Source: Candidatus Eremiobacteraceae bacterium (GTDB taxonomy: Bacteria > Vulcanimicrobiota > Vulcanimicrobiia > Eremiobacterales > Eremiobacteraceae). From it: a stretch of DNA of 39,513 nt. Below are positions 3,580 through 18,186 of the stretch, in pieces. Every line of letters starts with the position of its first letter. Within the stretch, counting starts at the first letter, position 1. A program made the position numbers and the translations under genes. Under the pieces are notes generated by a model. The model worked only from the letters and a program-made list of their open reading frames with translations, searched no databases and was not told where the DNA came from. The DNA lies in the NCBI GenBank assembly GCA_035314825.1, contig DATFYX010000064.1, positions 1-39,513 on the forward strand. Direction: 5' to 3'.

Positions 3580-4133
3580 CCTCGCGGCAAGGACTCCTCG
3601 GGCGCCAGCGGCATCCGCCGGACACCCCGCGGGTAGATGCCGTTCGGGTTGCGCGCGATGTAATCTTCGGACAGCACGGCGAGGTATTCGAAATTCTCCA
3701 TGAGCGCTTGCGTCTGGAGGACGCGGCGTCTGATCGTGGTGACGGGCAATAGCGAATTCCAGGCGGTCAGCACGACGCCGGACCACAGATCACAGGCGAT
3801 CTCTCTGTCGATGATGCCGTGCTTGACGAACGCGCCGAGATTCTCGAAGAAATTGCCGACGAAGTTGATCGCCTGCAGCTCGTCGTCCAAGACGCGGCGC
3901 TCGAAGCGCGCCGCCGTTCCGGGCTGCTCGAGGAGGACCGGCAGATCTTCTTGGATGAAGCGCCGCGCCTTGAAGAACTCCGGCGATTCGATGACCTCGC
4001 GACACTCGGTGAGCGCGGAGATCTGATTGCCGCCGCGCATGTGGCGCAGCTGGATGATCGCAGTGACCGCGGTCGCGGCGATGACGACGAAGGTTCCGAG
4101 CGACGCGATCGTGCTTACAAGTTCGAGCGACAG
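3576..4133 (-). CDS. DUF4760-like single-pass membrane protein, probable CTG start
   Basis: The conventional start is ATG 4040 (154 aa). Upstream of it the frame continues for 31 sense codons that encode ELVSTIASLGTFVVIAATAV, then TAIIQLRHMRGGNQISALTE. That is a transmembrane helix followed by a basic stop-transfer segment, the N-terminal layout I associate with DUF4760-like proteins. No ATG, GTG or TTG exists in that stretch. A CTG at 4133 lies 6 nt after a perfect GGAGG (4140-4144), and an in-frame TAG lies two codons further up. I therefore annotate 185 residues from CTG. The rest is soluble, helical and rich in aromatic residues. The gene follows the acyl-CoA ligase gene across a REP-like hairpin. 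Function is unknown. Confidence 0.7.
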   Translation of the reverse strand: MSLELVSTIASLGTFVVIAATAVTAIIQLRHMRGGNQISALTECREVIESPEFFKARRFIQEDLPVLLEQPGTAARFERRVLDDELQAINFVGNFFENLGAFVKHGIIDREIACDLWSGVVLTAWNSLLPVTTIRRRVLQTQALMENFEYLAVLSEDYIARNPNGIYPRGVRRMPLAPEESLPRG

Positions 4134-7754: not shown

Positions 7755-7985
7755 AAAAAGCGGGCTTCGGCGTTGCGTCCCGCAATGCCCGTATGGTAAG
7801 ATACCAGAGCGCAAGTTTAGGATCAGAAATGCGCCATTTGCCCGCGGCCTTCGGTCGTGGGAGGTGTGCCCTCCCGGTCACACCCCGATCCTAGTGAACG
7901 GTCGCCCAGCGACTGTTGTGGCTGTCAAACGGACGGTCGAGTAAACTCGACCGCTCCATAGGGCGGCTTAGGGAAAGGTTTTCGC
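7755..7985. promoter_or_regulatory. Intergenic region upstream of rpsB with hairpin and REP-like repeat
   Basis: About 230 nt between the leftward small membrane protein gene and rpsB, so it should hold the promoter of the housekeeping block. A perfect 6-bp hairpin GGGAGG-TGTGC-CCTCCC lies at 7859-7875, and a GGAG-family REP-like palindrome lies at 7934-7957. AAAGG at 7974-7978 is a well-placed ribosome site for the rpsB ATG. TAAGAT near 7798-7803 could be a -10 box, but no good -35 was found. A ribosomal-protein autoregulatory leader is possible; nothing here proves one. Confidence 0.4.
7934..7957 (-). repeat. REP-like palindrome, GGAG family, copy 1
   Basis: On the minus strand GGAG is followed directly by CGGTCGAG-TTTA-CTCGACCG, a perfect 8-bp stem with a 4-nt loop. 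The same sequence, identical over 25 nt including one flanking base, recurs at 16992-17015. Here it lies in the 5' leader of rpsB, 28 nt before the start codon. GGAG 5' of a hairpin is the alternative REP tetranucleotide. Confidence 0.75.
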
Positions 7986-13128: not shown

Positions 13129-14169
13129 GTGGCTTTGTTCCTGCTCGTGCTGGGCGTCCTCATCATCTTCCACGAGTTCGGCCACTTCATCTTCGCCAAG
13201 CGTTTCGGCGTACGCGTGAGCAACTTCGCGGTCGGCTTCGGCCCGACGATCGTCAAATGGACGCGCGGCGAGACCACCTATCGCATCAACGCGCTGCCGC
13301 TGGGCGGCTATTGCCAGATGGTAGGCGAGGATCAGGCCGACGACGGCAGCGCCGATCCGGGCAATTTTCAGCATCATCCGCTGTGGCAGCGCTTCATCAT
13401 CATCGTCGCTGGTCCGCTGTTCAATCTCTTGCTCGCAGTCGGCATCGCGGCGGGTATCGCGTGGTCCGTCGGCATCCCGCTGGGACCGACCAATATCGTC
13501 GACAGCGTCGAAGCCAACTCGCCGGCGGCGCAAGCCGGCTTGCAGTCCGGCGATCAGATCGAGACGGTCAACGGGCAGGCGTTCACCAGCGCAAACGAGC
13601 TCATCGCGTACATCCACGCGCACCCGGACCAGACGCTGGCCGTCGGCATCTTGCGCGACGGCGCGGTCAAACACGTCGACATCCACACCGAGAAGAAGAC
13701 CCTTGGCGGACACGTCGTCGGCGCGCTCGGCTTCGTCCCTCGTCAGCTTTTCGAACATCGATCGCTCGGAGCAGCGATCGGATGGGGCTTTACCAGCACC
13801 GCGGCTTTCATCTGGCTCAACGCGGTCGGGATCGGCCAGATGTTCGCGCAGCATGACATCTCCGGTCTGTCTGGACCGGTCGGCATCTATCGGGTCTTCA
13901 CCCAGGCGTCGCAGTTGGGGGTGATGGAGGCGCTCGATCTGGTCGGCAAGATCTCTGCGCTGCTCGGATTCTTCAACTTGCTGCCGATCCCGGCGCTCGA
14001 CGGTGGCCGGCTGGTGTTCTTGTTCGTCGAGCTCGTGCGCGGCCGGCCGGTCGATCCTGAAAAAGAAGGTCTGGTCCACCTCACGGGTTTCGCGCTGTTG
14101 ATGGTGCTCGTGCTATTCGTCACCTATCACGACATCGCGATGTGGGTGAGCGGACGAGGCGGTCTGTGA
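13129..14169 (+). CDS. rseP: Site-2 metalloprotease RseP (RIP family)
   Basis: An intramembrane zinc protease that cleaves anti-sigma factors or signal-peptide remnants. From GTG 13129 it has 346 residues, with the zinc motif HEFGH at 15-19 inside the first helix. A single PDZ domain is centred on NSPAAQAGLQSGDQIETVNG (about 128-150), and the third metal ligand is in NLLPIPALDGGRLVFL (about 283-298), followed by a last helix. Only one PDZ domain is present, unlike E. coli RseP. No Shine-Dalgarno precedes this GTG. The frame is open back to the dxr stop and encodes a further hydrophobic IIALISFPSLATLGQ, so the true start may be an ATC at 13084, giving 361 residues. Confidence 0.95.
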   Translation: MALFLLVLGVLIIFHEFGHFIFAKRFGVRVSNFAVGFGPTIVKWTRGETTYRINALPLGGYCQMVGEDQADDGSADPGNFQHHPLWQRFIIIVAGPLFNLLLAVGIAAGIAWSVGIPLGPTNIVDSVEANSPAAQAGLQSGDQIETVNGQAFTSANELIAYIHAHPDQTLAVGILRDGAVKHVDIHTEKKTLGGHVVGALGFVPRQLFEHRSLGAAIGWGFTSTAAFIWLNAVGIGQMFAQHDISGLSGPVGIYRVFTQASQLGVMEALDLVGKISALLGFFNLLPIPALDGGRLVFLFVELVRGRPVDPEKEGLVHLTGFALLMVLVLFVTYHDIAMWVSGRGGL

Positions 14170-15332
14170 AGCCGGATATCGCCTCGTCAGAAACCGCGCT
14201 GCCGCCCGTGCCGGATTGGTCGGGCGTCGCGCCGCGGGTGCCAGCTCCGCCGCCGCTGCCGCCGCGGCGCAAGACGCGGGCGGTCAAGGTCGGGAACGTC
14301 GTCATCGGCGGCGACGCCCCGGTCTCGGTGCAGTCGATGACGACCACCAAGACCGATGATTGGGCCGCGACGCTCGACCAAGTCGAGCAGCTCGCCGCGG
14401 CCGGCTGCGAGATCGTGCGCATCTCGGTGCCGGATGCGAAGGCGGCCGCTGCATGTAAGAAGATAAAGGAAGGCGCGAACGTGCCGCTCGTGGCCGACAT
14501 CCACTTCGACCACCGCTATGCGCTCGCGGCCATCGAAGCAGGCTGGGACAAACTGCGCCTCAATCCAGGCAACATCCGCGACCCGCAAAAGGTGCGCGAG
14601 GTGGTCGGCGCGGCCAAGGCTCGCGTGATGCCGATCCGCATCGGCGTGAATCTGGGCTCGCTCGCGCCCGACATAATCGAGCGCTACGGTCGCACGCCGG
14701 CGGGCATGGTCGAATCCGCGCTGCGCCATATCCGCATTCTCGAAGAGCTCGATTTCCGCGACATCGTCGTGTCGCTCAAGGCGCATGACGTGCGCGTCAC
14801 CGTGGCGGCGTATCGCGAGATGGCCAAGCACGTCGACTATCCGTTCCATCTCGGCATCACCGAGGCCGGCACGACGCGCACCGGCACGGTGAAGAGCAGC
14901 GTCGGGCTCGGCATGCTGCTCGCCGAAGGCATCGGCGATACGATACGCGTCTCGCTGGCCGCCGACCCGGTCGAAGAAGTGCCCGTATGCTGGGAGATCC
15001 TCAAGTCGCTCGGGCTGCGCGAACGCGGCGTCGAAATCACGGCATGTCCGTCGTGCGGGCGCGTGCAGGTCGACATCTTGCGCCTCGCGGACGCGGTCGA
15101 AAAGATCACGGCCGAGTACAAAGCTCCTGTGAAAGTCGCCGTCATGGGTTGCGCCGTCAATGGGCCGGGCGAGGCGAGCATGGCCGATGTCGGCATCGCC
15201 GGCGGCAAGGGGATGGGCCTGCTCTACCGCGACGGCGTCATGGTCCGCTCGCTGCCCGAGGGCAAACTGCTCGACGGCCTGCGGGAAGAGATAGAGAAGG
15301 TCATCGCGGAACGCTATCCCCAGTATCTCTGA
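14166..15332 (+). CDS. ispG: 4-hydroxy-3-methylbut-2-enyl diphosphate synthase
   Basis: A 388-residue IspG, the [4Fe-4S] enzyme of the MEP pathway. The TIM-barrel part holds VQSMTTTKTDD, VPLVADIHFDHRYAL and LRLNPGNI. The cluster cysteines are in CPSCGR and in MGCAVNGPGE, whose glutamate completes the set. This is the short two-domain bacterial form. The GTG at 14166 overlaps the rseP stop (GTGA); an open frame to GTG 14142 would add eight residues. The first 35 or so residues are proline-rich and unlikely to be structured. Confidence 0.97.
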   Translation: MKPDIASSETALPPVPDWSGVAPRVPAPPPLPPRRKTRAVKVGNVVIGGDAPVSVQSMTTTKTDDWAATLDQVEQLAAAGCEIVRISVPDAKAAAACKKIKEGANVPLVADIHFDHRYALAAIEAGWDKLRLNPGNIRDPQKVREVVGAAKARVMPIRIGVNLGSLAPDIIERYGRTPAGMVESALRHIRILEELDFRDIVVSLKAHDVRVTVAAYREMAKHVDYPFHLGITEAGTTRTGTVKSSVGLGMLLAEGIGDTIRVSLAADPVEEVPVCWEILKSLGLRERGVEITACPSCGRVQVDILRLADAVEKITAEYKAPVKVAVMGCAVNGPGEASMADVGIAGGKGMGLLYRDGVMVRSLPEGKLLDGLREEIEKVIAERYPQYL

Positions 15333-15351: not shown

Positions 15352-15509
15352 CGGCGGCCGAGTCGTCGGGTCGGCCTTGCTCGGGGGCTTCGGTCCGTCG
15401 CCTGCCGGCTCCGGACAAGTCGCTCCCTCATTCGCCGCGCTTCTTCGGACCAACGGAAGCGCGGCTCTTCAGAGCCCTCGCCCAGGCCGACCCGACGACT
15501 CGGCCGCCG
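15352..15509 (+). repeat. 158-nt palindromic element with 26-bp perfect arms upstream of proS
   Basis: Positions 15352-15377 are the exact reverse complement of 15484-15509 (26 of 26). The 106-nt interior folds further: CGGGGGCT near 15383 pairs with AGCCCTCG near 15473, GTCCG (15394) pairs with CGGAC (15411), CCGCGCTTC pairs with GAAGCGCGG (about 15435-15463), and GGCTC-TTCA-GAGCC lies at 15463-15476. The element fills most of the 189-nt gap between ispG and proS. It has no ORF of its own and no obvious target-site duplication. It could be a MITE-like insertion, a structured leader of proS, or a processing/termination structure. Confidence 0.75.
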
Positions 15510-15521
15510 AAACGTCAGGTA

Positions 15522-16955
15522 ATGCAAGAGAAAAAGCAAGTCAAGAGCATTCCGCCCAAGGCGGACGATCTCTCCGAATGGTATACGCAGGTCTGCCTGC
15601 GCGCGCAGCTCGTGGATTATACGCCCGTGCGCGGCTGCATCGCGCTGCGGCCGTACGGATATGCCATCTGGGAGCTCATCCAAGGTGAGCTCGACCGCCG
15701 TTTCAAAGCGACCGGCCATTCCAACGCATATTTCCCGCTGCTGATCCCCGAAAGTCTGCTCGTCAAAGAAGCCGAGCACGTCGAAGGGTTCGCGCCTGAA
15801 GTCGCGTGGGTGACCCAGGGCGGCGGCGAAGTGCTCACGGAGCGCCTCGCGATCCGGCCCACGTCCGAGGCGATCATCGGCACGATGTACTCGCGCTGGA
15901 TCCAGTCGCATCGCGATCTGCCCGTGCTCATCAACCAGTGGTGCAACGTGATGCGCTGGGAAAAGGCGACGCGCCCGTTCTTGCGCACCCTCGAGTTCTT
16001 ATGGCAGGAAGGCCACACCGTCCACGCGACCGAGGCGGAAGCCGCGCAAGAAGTGCAGCGCATGCTTGAGATCTATCGCGAGGTCGCGGAGGACGTGCTC
16101 GCGCTGCCGGTCATCAAGGGCCGCAAGAGCGAAAGCGAAAAATTCGCCGGCGCGGCGGCCACGTACGCGATCGAAGCGCTGATGCCCGACGGCAAAGCCC
16201 TCCAAGCCGGCACGTCGCACGAATTCGGCCAGAATTTCTCAAAGGCGTACGACATCACGTTCACCGACGTCGACGAAAAGGTGAAACACGCGTATACGAC
16301 CTCGTGGGGCGTGTCGTGGCGCATCATCGGCGGTCTCATCATGGCCCACGGGGATGACCGCGGCCTTATCTTGCCGCCAGCGGTCGCGCCGCACCAAGTC
16401 GTCATCGTGCCGATCGTGAAGACCGGCGATGAGACGGTCATGCCGGTCGCGCGGGTGGTCCGCGACGAGATCGCGCAGCACGCGCGCGTCCTGCTCGACG
16501 ACCGCGATCAAAGCCCCGGGTGGAAATTCAGCGAATGGGAGATGCGCGGCGTGCCGCTGCGCGTCGAGATCGGGCCGCGCGACGTCGCGCAGAACAGCGT
16601 GACGGTCGTGCGCCGCGACATGCCGGGCAAGACCGTCGTGGCGCTGCCCGAGATCGCGGCGCGCGTGCCCGCGATCCTGGAAGAGATCCGCCAAGCGATG
16701 CTCGAGCGCGCGCGCGCGTGGCGCGACGCGCATACGATCGAGGTCACCGAGCGCGCCGCGTTCGTCGAGGCGCTCAAGCGCCAAGACGGCTTCGTGCTGG
16801 CGCCGTGGTGCGAGCGGCCGGAGTGCGAGCTCGACATCAAGGGCGAGACGAGCGCGGTCAGCCGCGTGATCGCGGGGCCGGCGCAACCCGGATCGGCGTG
16901 CGCGTACTGCGGCCAGCCGGCGCACGTCAAAGCGTATTTTGCCCGATCGTATTAA
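15522..16955 (+). CDS. proS: Prolyl-tRNA synthetase, archaeal/eukaryotic type
   Basis: A 477-residue class II synthetase charging tRNA-Pro. It lacks the large editing insertion of E. coli-type ProRS. It keeps class II motif 2 (MRWEKATRPFLRTLEFLWQEG), the proline pocket region LAIRPTSEAIIG, and motif 3 around HGDDRGLILPP. It has the extra C-terminal domain with a CERPEC...CAYCG zinc-like cysteine set and ends in the buried C-terminal tyrosine (YFARSY) characteristic of the Thermus/archaeal/eukaryotic group. The ATG at 15522 has only AGGT three nt upstream. The leader is the large palindromic element. The 3' end overlaps the deacetylase gene by 17 nt. Confidence 0.97.
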   Translation: MQEKKQVKSIPPKADDLSEWYTQVCLRAQLVDYTPVRGCIALRPYGYAIWELIQGELDRRFKATGHSNAYFPLLIPESLLVKEAEHVEGFAPEVAWVTQGGGEVLTERLAIRPTSEAIIGTMYSRWIQSHRDLPVLINQWCNVMRWEKATRPFLRTLEFLWQEGHTVHATEAEAAQEVQRMLEIYREVAEDVLALPVIKGRKSESEKFAGAAATYAIEALMPDGKALQAGTSHEFGQNFSKAYDITFTDVDEKVKHAYTTSWGVSWRIIGGLIMAHGDDRGLILPPAVAPHQVVIVPIVKTGDETVMPVARVVRDEIAQHARVLLDDRDQSPGWKFSEWEMRGVPLRVEIGPRDVAQNSVTVVRRDMPGKTVVALPEIAARVPAILEEIRQAMLERARAWRDAHTIEVTERAAFVEALKRQDGFVLAPWCERPECELDIKGETSAVSRVIAGPAQPGSACAYCGQPAHVKAYFARSY

Positions 16956-18186
16956 GCCCTTGCTCGCGAGCGCACTCGCGCTGATATCCGTCGGTCGAGT
17001 AAACTCGACCGCTCCAAGCGACTTGGCCCACGGATCTCCGCCGGTGGCGGCGATCCTCATGTACCATCACGTTTCCGATCGCGTCTTGCCGGGCCCGTAC
17101 GCAAAGGCGCTGACCGTCACGCCGGCCCAATTCACGAAGCAATTGAACTTCTTGCGCACGAACGGCTGCGAGACGGTCACCGTCGACACGATCGTCGCCG
17201 ACGTGCAGGCGCACGCGCTGCGCGGCTGCGAGATCGCGATCACCTTCGACGACGGCTACGTCGACGACGTGGGCGCGGCGCGCGCGCTGACCGGCGACGT
17301 GGACACGGCGACGCTGTACATCAGTTCCGGGCTTGTCGGCGCGACCGGGCACGTGACCAAAGCGCAGCTGAAGGCGCTCGCGGACGAGGGGCTGCAGATC
17401 GGCGCGCACACGGTCAACCATGTCGATCTGACCACGCGCGACGATGCGCAGGCGAGGCGGGAGATCGGCGGATCGCGCGCCAGCCTTGCGGCCTGGTCAG
17501 GCACGCCGGTGGACAGTTTCGCGTATCCCTCCGGCCGCTACGACGCGCGCATCGAGCGGCTTGTCCGAGGCTTTGGGTTTCGCAACGCGCTCACAACGCA
17601 ACCGGGGCCGCTCGCGGGCGCCGGCGTAGCGGACCTCTACGCGCTGCCGCGCTACCGCATCGAGCGCGACAGCGGCAGTGCGCTGATACGGCGCATCGTC
17701 GGAGCGCCGGCGCGACGCGGGGCATCCGCGCAAGAGCTGCGGTCGATCGCGCGCGAGCGGGTTGAGGGGAACGACCCGGCGCTCGCCGAACGCATCGGCG
17801 CCGCTCTCCTGGACGCGTCATATCCCGAACCGTTGCTGAAGGTGCGCGTGCTGCGCATCGGCGATGCGGCGTTCGTCGGGCTTATGCTCTCCGGAGTGAA
17901 GCTGCATGCGCATGTCGACCGCGACCAGTTCATGGCCGATGTCGGCGGGATGATCGACCGCGCCTTTGACGCGCGGCCGGACATCGCAGAGGTGGACGTG
18001 TGGGCCGTCACGCCGCTGCGGGTGCAGCCGTCCGCGCCGGTGTCAGGTGACTACGCGGTGCCGACGTCGCGCACCGTGTTCTCGGCGGCCGTCACACGCG
18101 CGCAGACGCAGACGGCCCTCACGCGCCGGCAGATGTTGGGAACCATGTATTGGGCACCGAGTTTCTTAGAGGAAGATCCACGATGA
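16939..18186 (+). CDS. Secreted polysaccharide deacetylase with C-terminal domain
   Basis: A 415-residue exported protein. The TTG start at 16939 gives a basic n-region (MPDRIK) and hydrophobic core (LLASALALISV); TTG 16960 is an alternative. The NodB domain shows ILMYHHVSD, the metal/base motif ITFDDGYVDD, GAHTVNHVDLT with the metal histidines, and FAYPSGRYDARI. It should deacetylate N-acetylated glycans outside the inner membrane. Residues from about 250 form a second domain (VRVLRIGDAAFVGLMLSGV, then IAEVDVWAVTP) that I do not recognise. A GGAG-family REP-like palindrome is read in frame just after the signal core (GRVNSTAP). The stop overlaps the M16 peptidase start (ATGA). Confidence 0.88.
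   Translation: MPDRIKPLLASALALISVGRVNSTAPSDLAHGSPPVAAILMYHHVSDRVLPGPYAKALTVTPAQFTKQLNFLRTNGCETVTVDTIVADVQAHALRGCEIAITFDDGYVDDVGAARALTGDVDTATLYISSGLVGATGHVTKAQLKALADEGLQIGAHTVNHVDLTTRDDAQARREIGGSRASLAAWSGTPVDSFAYPSGRYDARIERLVRGFGFRNALTTQPGPLAGAGVADLYALPRYRIERDSGSALIRRIVGAPARRGASAQELRSIARERVEGNDPALAERIGAALLDASYPEPLLKVRVLRIGDAAFVGLMLSGVKLHAHVDRDQFMADVGGMIDRAFDARPDIAEVDVWAVTPLRVQPSAPVSGDYAVPTSRTVFSAAVTRAQTQTALTRRQMLGTMYWAPSFLEEDPR
16992..17015 (-). repeat. REP-like palindrome, GGAG family, copy 2, inside the deacetylase gene
   Basis: Identical over 25 nt to the copy at 7934-7957 and in the same orientation: on the minus strand GGAG, then the 8-bp stem CGGTCGAG/CTCGACCG with a TTTA loop. It encodes GRVNSTAP right after the hydrophobic core of the signal peptide, where extra residues would be removed or tolerated. 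Confidence 0.75.

Follow-up and report, generated by a model that had tools for sequence, protein, structure and literature searches.

The genes cdsA, dxr, rseP, ispG, proS and a polysaccharide-deacetylase-like gene form a single-direction run within the window, i.e. the whole 39,513-nt stretch of DNA analysed here, and the gaps between them are mostly small or lacking. Between the ispG stop codon (15332) and the proS start codon (ATG, 15522) lies a gap of 189 nt. A palindromic element at 15352-15509, named here E1, takes up 158 nt of it. The features of the locus are as follows.

14142-15332, plus strand: ispG (NCBIfam), upstream gene in the same co-directional run (cdsA, dxr, rseP, ispG)
15352-15377: left perfect arm of E1, CGGCGGCCGAGTCGTCGGGTCGGCCT
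15378-15483, minus strand: structured core of E1, 106 nt, with the plan P1, P2 and a junction with two hairpins (folds and family plan)
15379-15385, minus strand: 3' side of P2, CCC-GA-GC (fold and GA/GA count)
15393-15416, minus strand: second hairpin with a GA/GA internal loop, GTCCG-GA-GCC-GGCA-GGC-GA-CGGAC (fold and GA/GA count)
15434-15465, minus strand: first hairpin, GCCGCGCTTC...GAAGCGCGGC (folds)
15475-15481, minus strand: 5' side of P2, GC-GA-GGG, forming a GA/GA internal loop with 15379-15385 (fold and GA/GA count)
15484-15509: right perfect arm of E1, exact reverse complement of the left arm
15522-16955, plus strand: proS, family I prolyl-tRNA synthetase (NCBIfam)

The E1 palindrome is real and far beyond chance. 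An earlier, sequence-only reading had described 26-bp perfect arms 106 nt apart, filling nearly all of the gap and unlikely to arise by chance, and it was right on each point. The arms at 15352-15377 and 15484-15509 are exact reverse complements, and perfect arms of at least 26 nt with a spacer of at most 400 nt are expected 2.7e-6 times per 2.55-Mb genome of this base composition. In the 1.69 Mb scanned (66% of the genome, spacer of at most 400 nt), the longest perfect inverted repeats measured 26 (E1), 22, 16 and 16 nt. All others were 15 nt or shorter, with counts declining steadily as predicted by chance. A short inner stem (15379-15385/15475-15481) prolongs the arms beyond a small internal loop. 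The same reading had counted at least four further hairpins inside; two were clear (15393-15416 and 15434-15465), and four is somewhat high.

Known RNA signals were searched for at the locus. Rfam 15, at gathering and at permissive thresholds, gave no family in the window, the best score near E1 being 20.5 bits against a threshold of 60 bits; a T-box or another known leader was rejected on these grounds. No tRNA was detected in the window, and no promoter-like site was reported in the ispG-proS gap. An intrinsic terminator of the ispG operon would be in keeping with a strong GC-rich stem just past the stop codon, but the spacer is 106 nt long, no T-run follows the stem on either strand, and the terminator scan was empty across the gap, leaving this explanation a practically negligible probability.

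The ispG-proS order was retained in both sister species, where E1 was missing. Their gaps (248 and 293 nt) held different, non-homologous sequence, and that of sister genome G001 contained a minus-strand ORF of 54 aa with a lipoprotein-like signal. E1 as a remnant of this small ORF was considered and dropped, with no clear homolog of the ORF in 66% of the present genome. The gaps measured 101 and 64 nt in two genomes from other genera. Directly after the right arm of E1 stands AAACGTCAGGTAATG, which resembles AAACGTTAGGTGATG of G001. E1 is lineage-specific and, being absent from the sister-species gaps, therefore not an inherited or conserved proS leader.

These data bear on the idea that E1 is a selected RNA, which arose in place and was kept for its function as a regulatory leader or processing stem setting proS apart from the upstream operon. 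Its position in a wide gap of an otherwise tight co-directional run would suit such a role, as would the 26-bp perfect duplex, a good predicted RNase III substrate. The predicted RNA fold of the gap was also much more stable than that of shuffled sequences (-118.8 versus -81.4 ± 4.5 kcal/mol; z = -8.3; 0 of 200 shuffles equal). Against this, both sister species have a different gap without E1, no Rfam family matched, and the GA/GA motifs described below indicate the strand antisense to proS. A selected RNA evolved in place is thus distinctly unlikely. The novel leader controlling proS, as proposed by the sequence-only reading, is not supported: the element is not conserved, it matches no known leader family, and its GA/GA motifs lie on the antisense strand of the gene.

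E1 and its arms were single-copy in the whole genome, as judged by DNA similarity. No convincing match to E1 was found in 20 near relatives or in 117 genomes of the class, and none in phage or plasmid collections; the exact arm was not found in viral contigs. The 117 class genomes yielded two weak matches, in G098 (L166) and G037, of which the former was rejected as a relative because it sits inside an open coding frame. E1 might instead be a classical MITE, or what is left of an insertion sequence, whose 26-bp inverted ends would be recognised and moved by a transposase. Its size and terminal repeats fit, as does the empty place in the sister species. However, there was no second copy of the ends or the core in the genome or in the phage and plasmid collections, the viral contigs held no exact arm, and no direct repeat (target-site duplication) was seen by eye at the arm ends. 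A classical MITE is therefore very improbable. The suggestion of a recently arrived MITE-like palindrome nevertheless had a sound part. E1 is missing at the same place in both sister species, and a search of the genome for other copies, which found no further E1 arm or core, did reveal other palindromes built on this plan, which behave as interspersed elements do. In the strict sense E1 is no MITE, with a single copy of its arms and core and no target-site duplication seen, and the arms of the related family differ from copy to copy.

This family emerged from the long perfect repeats themselves. Among the four longest in the 1.69 Mb (26, 22, 16 and 16 nt), the 22-nt repeat (L174:16290-16421, the second longest) and one of the two 16-nt repeats (L232:10761-10879) belong together: their arms are unrelated, and their cores are 73% identical. 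A third locus, L132:18689-18817, matched the first. A covariance model of these three copies (R1) retrieved further copies in related genomes, and a second model (R2) was built from 15 copies. Searched with R2, 149 phylum genomes yielded about 90 copies (E ≤ 1e-4). These fell in nine genomes, each of them one of the 14 in this Eremiobacterota family; the other 135 phylum genomes searched had none. The most copies were carried by G004 (26), G005 (15), G013 (11), G002 (10) and G012 (10), followed by this genome (6), G001 (6), G011 (4) and G006 (2). None of four copies scanned against Rfam, two from this genome and two from related genomes, passed the threshold of any family. The palindrome family was previously unlisted and is absent from Rfam.

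The copies follow one plan, with the arms (P1), a second stem (P2) and a junction with two hairpins, the first of which has a GNRA-like loop. GA/GA loops are frequent in P2 and in the first hairpin; among the 22 copies from the genus, most carried such loops, one or two per copy, on the sense strand, and the antisense strand had none. In 29 distinct copies, 25 of 28 pairs showed two-sided changes, and 91% of the cells paired. The covariation score was 0.585, compared with 0.16 for shuffled alignments and less than 0.1 for slid partners; because the alignments had been fitted to the model, these figures favour the structure, but the contrast is still large. The arms are private, i.e. unrelated between copies and complementary inside each copy. 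Perfect arm lengths ranged from 7 to 22 nt, with a median of 12 nt when E1 is included, compared with a mean of 6.9 nt at random sites. In orthologous copies, the P1 arms drift and yet remain complementary.

Whether E1 belongs to this family was assessed in several ways. By layout it fits, with 26-bp private arms and a 106-nt multi-hairpin core (family cores are about 80-107 nt long), and by eye it first passed for a plain member. The sequence models spoke against that impression: R1 and R2 reached at best 15.6 bits on E1, out of register and not significant (E = 0.089 over the window), and a local alignment with 15 family cores did not exceed shuffles. We therefore downgraded its membership to probable. 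On the minus strand of E1, both of the two 2x2 internal loops were GA/GA, a count reached by 11 of 2000 shuffles (p = 0.0055). End motifs like those of the family were matched on the minus strand by 24 of 2000 shuffles (p = 0.012) and on the plus strand by 289 of 2000, in one version of the test; a second version favoured type A ends on both strands and was not strand-specific. A full-length alignment to the diverged copy L282:1338-1464(-), which is longer and adjoins a normal copy in G013, gave p = 0.036-0.049 for the minus strand and 1.0 for the plus strand. Copies of the diverged type in G013, whose core measures about 107 nt, include C22:53331-53457, C3:46549-46673 and C59:49711-49837. All three positive results are of modest strength, come from tests picked once the sequences had been seen, and are incompletely independent. 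A model from E1 alone (R3), run over the 14 genomes of the Eremiobacterota family, found nothing convincing elsewhere. Within 92 kb containing family copies, its best match was the same diverged copy (L282b), in register, at E = 0.45. A weak R3 match in G013 was rejected as an E1 relative, as it belongs to a separate repeat array; in that genome, L311:1450-1700 is a palindromic array of tandem GGGGCCGACGTCAGTCGGCCCGCGTGAAAGTCCTGAA units. Taken together, E1 is probably a strongly diverged family member read on the minus strand.

E1 could also be a one-off palindrome, made when template switching during replication copied part of the gap in reverse complement; it would then be no element at all, and its interior hairpins would be incidental. 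Its single copy, the lack of relatives of its core and arms in the 117 class genomes, and the ability of one template-switch event to make perfect stems (PMC8794818) agree with such an origin. However, the interior has unusual structure of its own, including two GA/GA loops on the same strand, the flanks offer nothing from which 106 nt of new core could have been copied, and the other long perfect repeats of such size in this genome are family members. We consider a one-off origin unlikely.

Family copies occupy gaps between genes as well as protein reading frames. Several are paired head to head, the two copies lying on opposite strands with some 25-60 nt between them. One in-frame copy joins a MurF part and an F420-ligase-like part of a single reading frame. 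At this place (L174:14903-17131), murF and the F420-0:gamma-glutamyl-ligase-like gene are fused in this genus, with the palindromic element in the linker; the two genes gave separate matches in the other genera examined. A second in-frame copy lies at residue 288 of Mfd (L315:2-2470, minus strand), between the UvrB-interaction and RNA-polymerase-interaction domains. This element is common to all three species of the genus, and the changes in its arms mostly remain paired. In the present genome, the peptides encoded by the murF and mfd copies are similar (...REIVPKLSGVLGAGAA... and ...RENILKLSGVPGAEAA...).

The copies at the liv locus have opposite orientations in this genome and in G002: core identity is 90.6% when one of them is reverse-complemented and 69% in direct comparison. 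The inverted part comprises the 86-nt core, and the flanking genes align in order between the two genomes. Template switching between inverted arms makes the arms identical and flips the spacer (PMC8604942, PMC8794818), and an inverted core is as expected from such a spacer inversion. A sister copy at L326, including both arms, is absent at the matching place here (L171; boundaries by BLAST). At L186 (~3957-4017) and L178 (~2450-2592), where the sister species carry the family element, a different short palindrome, AGCGCGTTC..GAACGCGCTACTACA, stands in the present genome. The same gaps thus seem to collect different palindromes.

We propose that E1 is a structured palindromic element which entered the ispG-proS gap in this lineage, probably as a diverged member of the family, and we lean towards this explanation as a whole. 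A palindromic element with template-switched arms is more likely than a terminator, a gene-specific leader or a classical MITE. The arms of E1 would be kept identical by DNA template switching between them, and such homogenisation would explain how 26 bases can match without a second copy anywhere. Template switching, together with selection on the folded core, is likewise the likely cause of a P1 stem that changes and yet stays complementary. We infer how the family copies spread, while the family, its covariation, its arm variability and the liv inversion were observed. In the ispG-proS transcript, the 26-bp duplex would form a putative RNase III target, or an insulator of proS from the upstream operon. 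A cut by RNase III would divide the message into the isoprenoid genes and proS. In Correia elements, RNase III cleaves at the terminal repeats (PMC10969869), and by this analogy E1 is a possible processing site separating proS.

Bacterial palindromic repeats are usually recognised by their shared sequence. E1 looks single-copy and probably belongs to a dispersed family visible by structure alone. Tentatively, E1 and its relatives may represent a new class of mobile structured elements, in which a conserved, covarying three-way-junction core would spread through one Eremiobacterota family, enter gaps and, in frame, proteins, and flip its orientation, while the closing stem would be rewritten in each copy and stay perfectly complementary. 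The family makes it testable whether long perfect stems are kept despite sequence change by selection or by template switching, and how important proteins, MurF and Mfd among them, come to contain structured elements in frame. A caution also follows, as perfect intergenic hairpins are not always gene-specific leaders.

Other repeats were encountered as well. This genome carries a separate, ordinary REP-like family (CGGTCGAA..TTCGACCG). The REP-like palindrome CGGTCGAG.TAAA.CTCGACCG, one side of which bears a conserved CTCCA tail, occurs at 7934-7953 and 16992-17011; copies numbered 161 here, 15 in G001 and 2 in G002, and a longer form had 311 copies in G005 and 193 in G012. The REP transposase Y1_Tnp was not found in this genome or in two sister genomes. 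The E1 arms were also considered as diverged REP copies, and this was rejected: the REP-like palindromes of the genome have other sequences, and nothing linked them to the arms. At L250:12131-12295, 22-nt near-perfect inverted repeats (TGGTTCCAGCACAGACCTGTCA) enclose a stretch with GGGTTCGATTCCCGACGTCTCCA, which resembles the 3' end of a tRNA or tmRNA; ARAGORN called no gene there.

Among known systems, REPs are conserved palindromes of 20-40 bp (PMC3733652). Like REPs, BIMEs and REPINs, the elements described here are interspersed palindromes, and the head-to-head pairs of the family resemble BIMEs; unlike the short conserved palindrome present there in many copies, E1 is single-copy. Correia and ERIC MITEs are similarly short and intergenic, with inverted ends and possible RNase III cleavage in the transcript (PMC10969869), but MITE ends are common to the copies, whereas those of the present family are private and no target-site duplication was seen. 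Rickettsia palindromic elements (RPE) are about 150 bp long, palindromic, present in many copies and inserted into unrelated protein genes without breaking the frame (PMC10969869). In murF and mfd, the family described here likewise keeps the frame, and the reading frame that it uses is homologous. It differs from RPE in its copy-specific arms and covarying core with GA/GA loops, the likeness being one of description, and E1 itself is intergenic, between ispG and proS, and not in a coding gene. The homogenised arms and the inverted spacer correspond to the signature of template-switch inverted repeats (PMC8604942, PMC8794818). The published spacer inversions in yeast genes span a few bases, whereas the inversion between the two species compared here covers a structured core of 86 nt.
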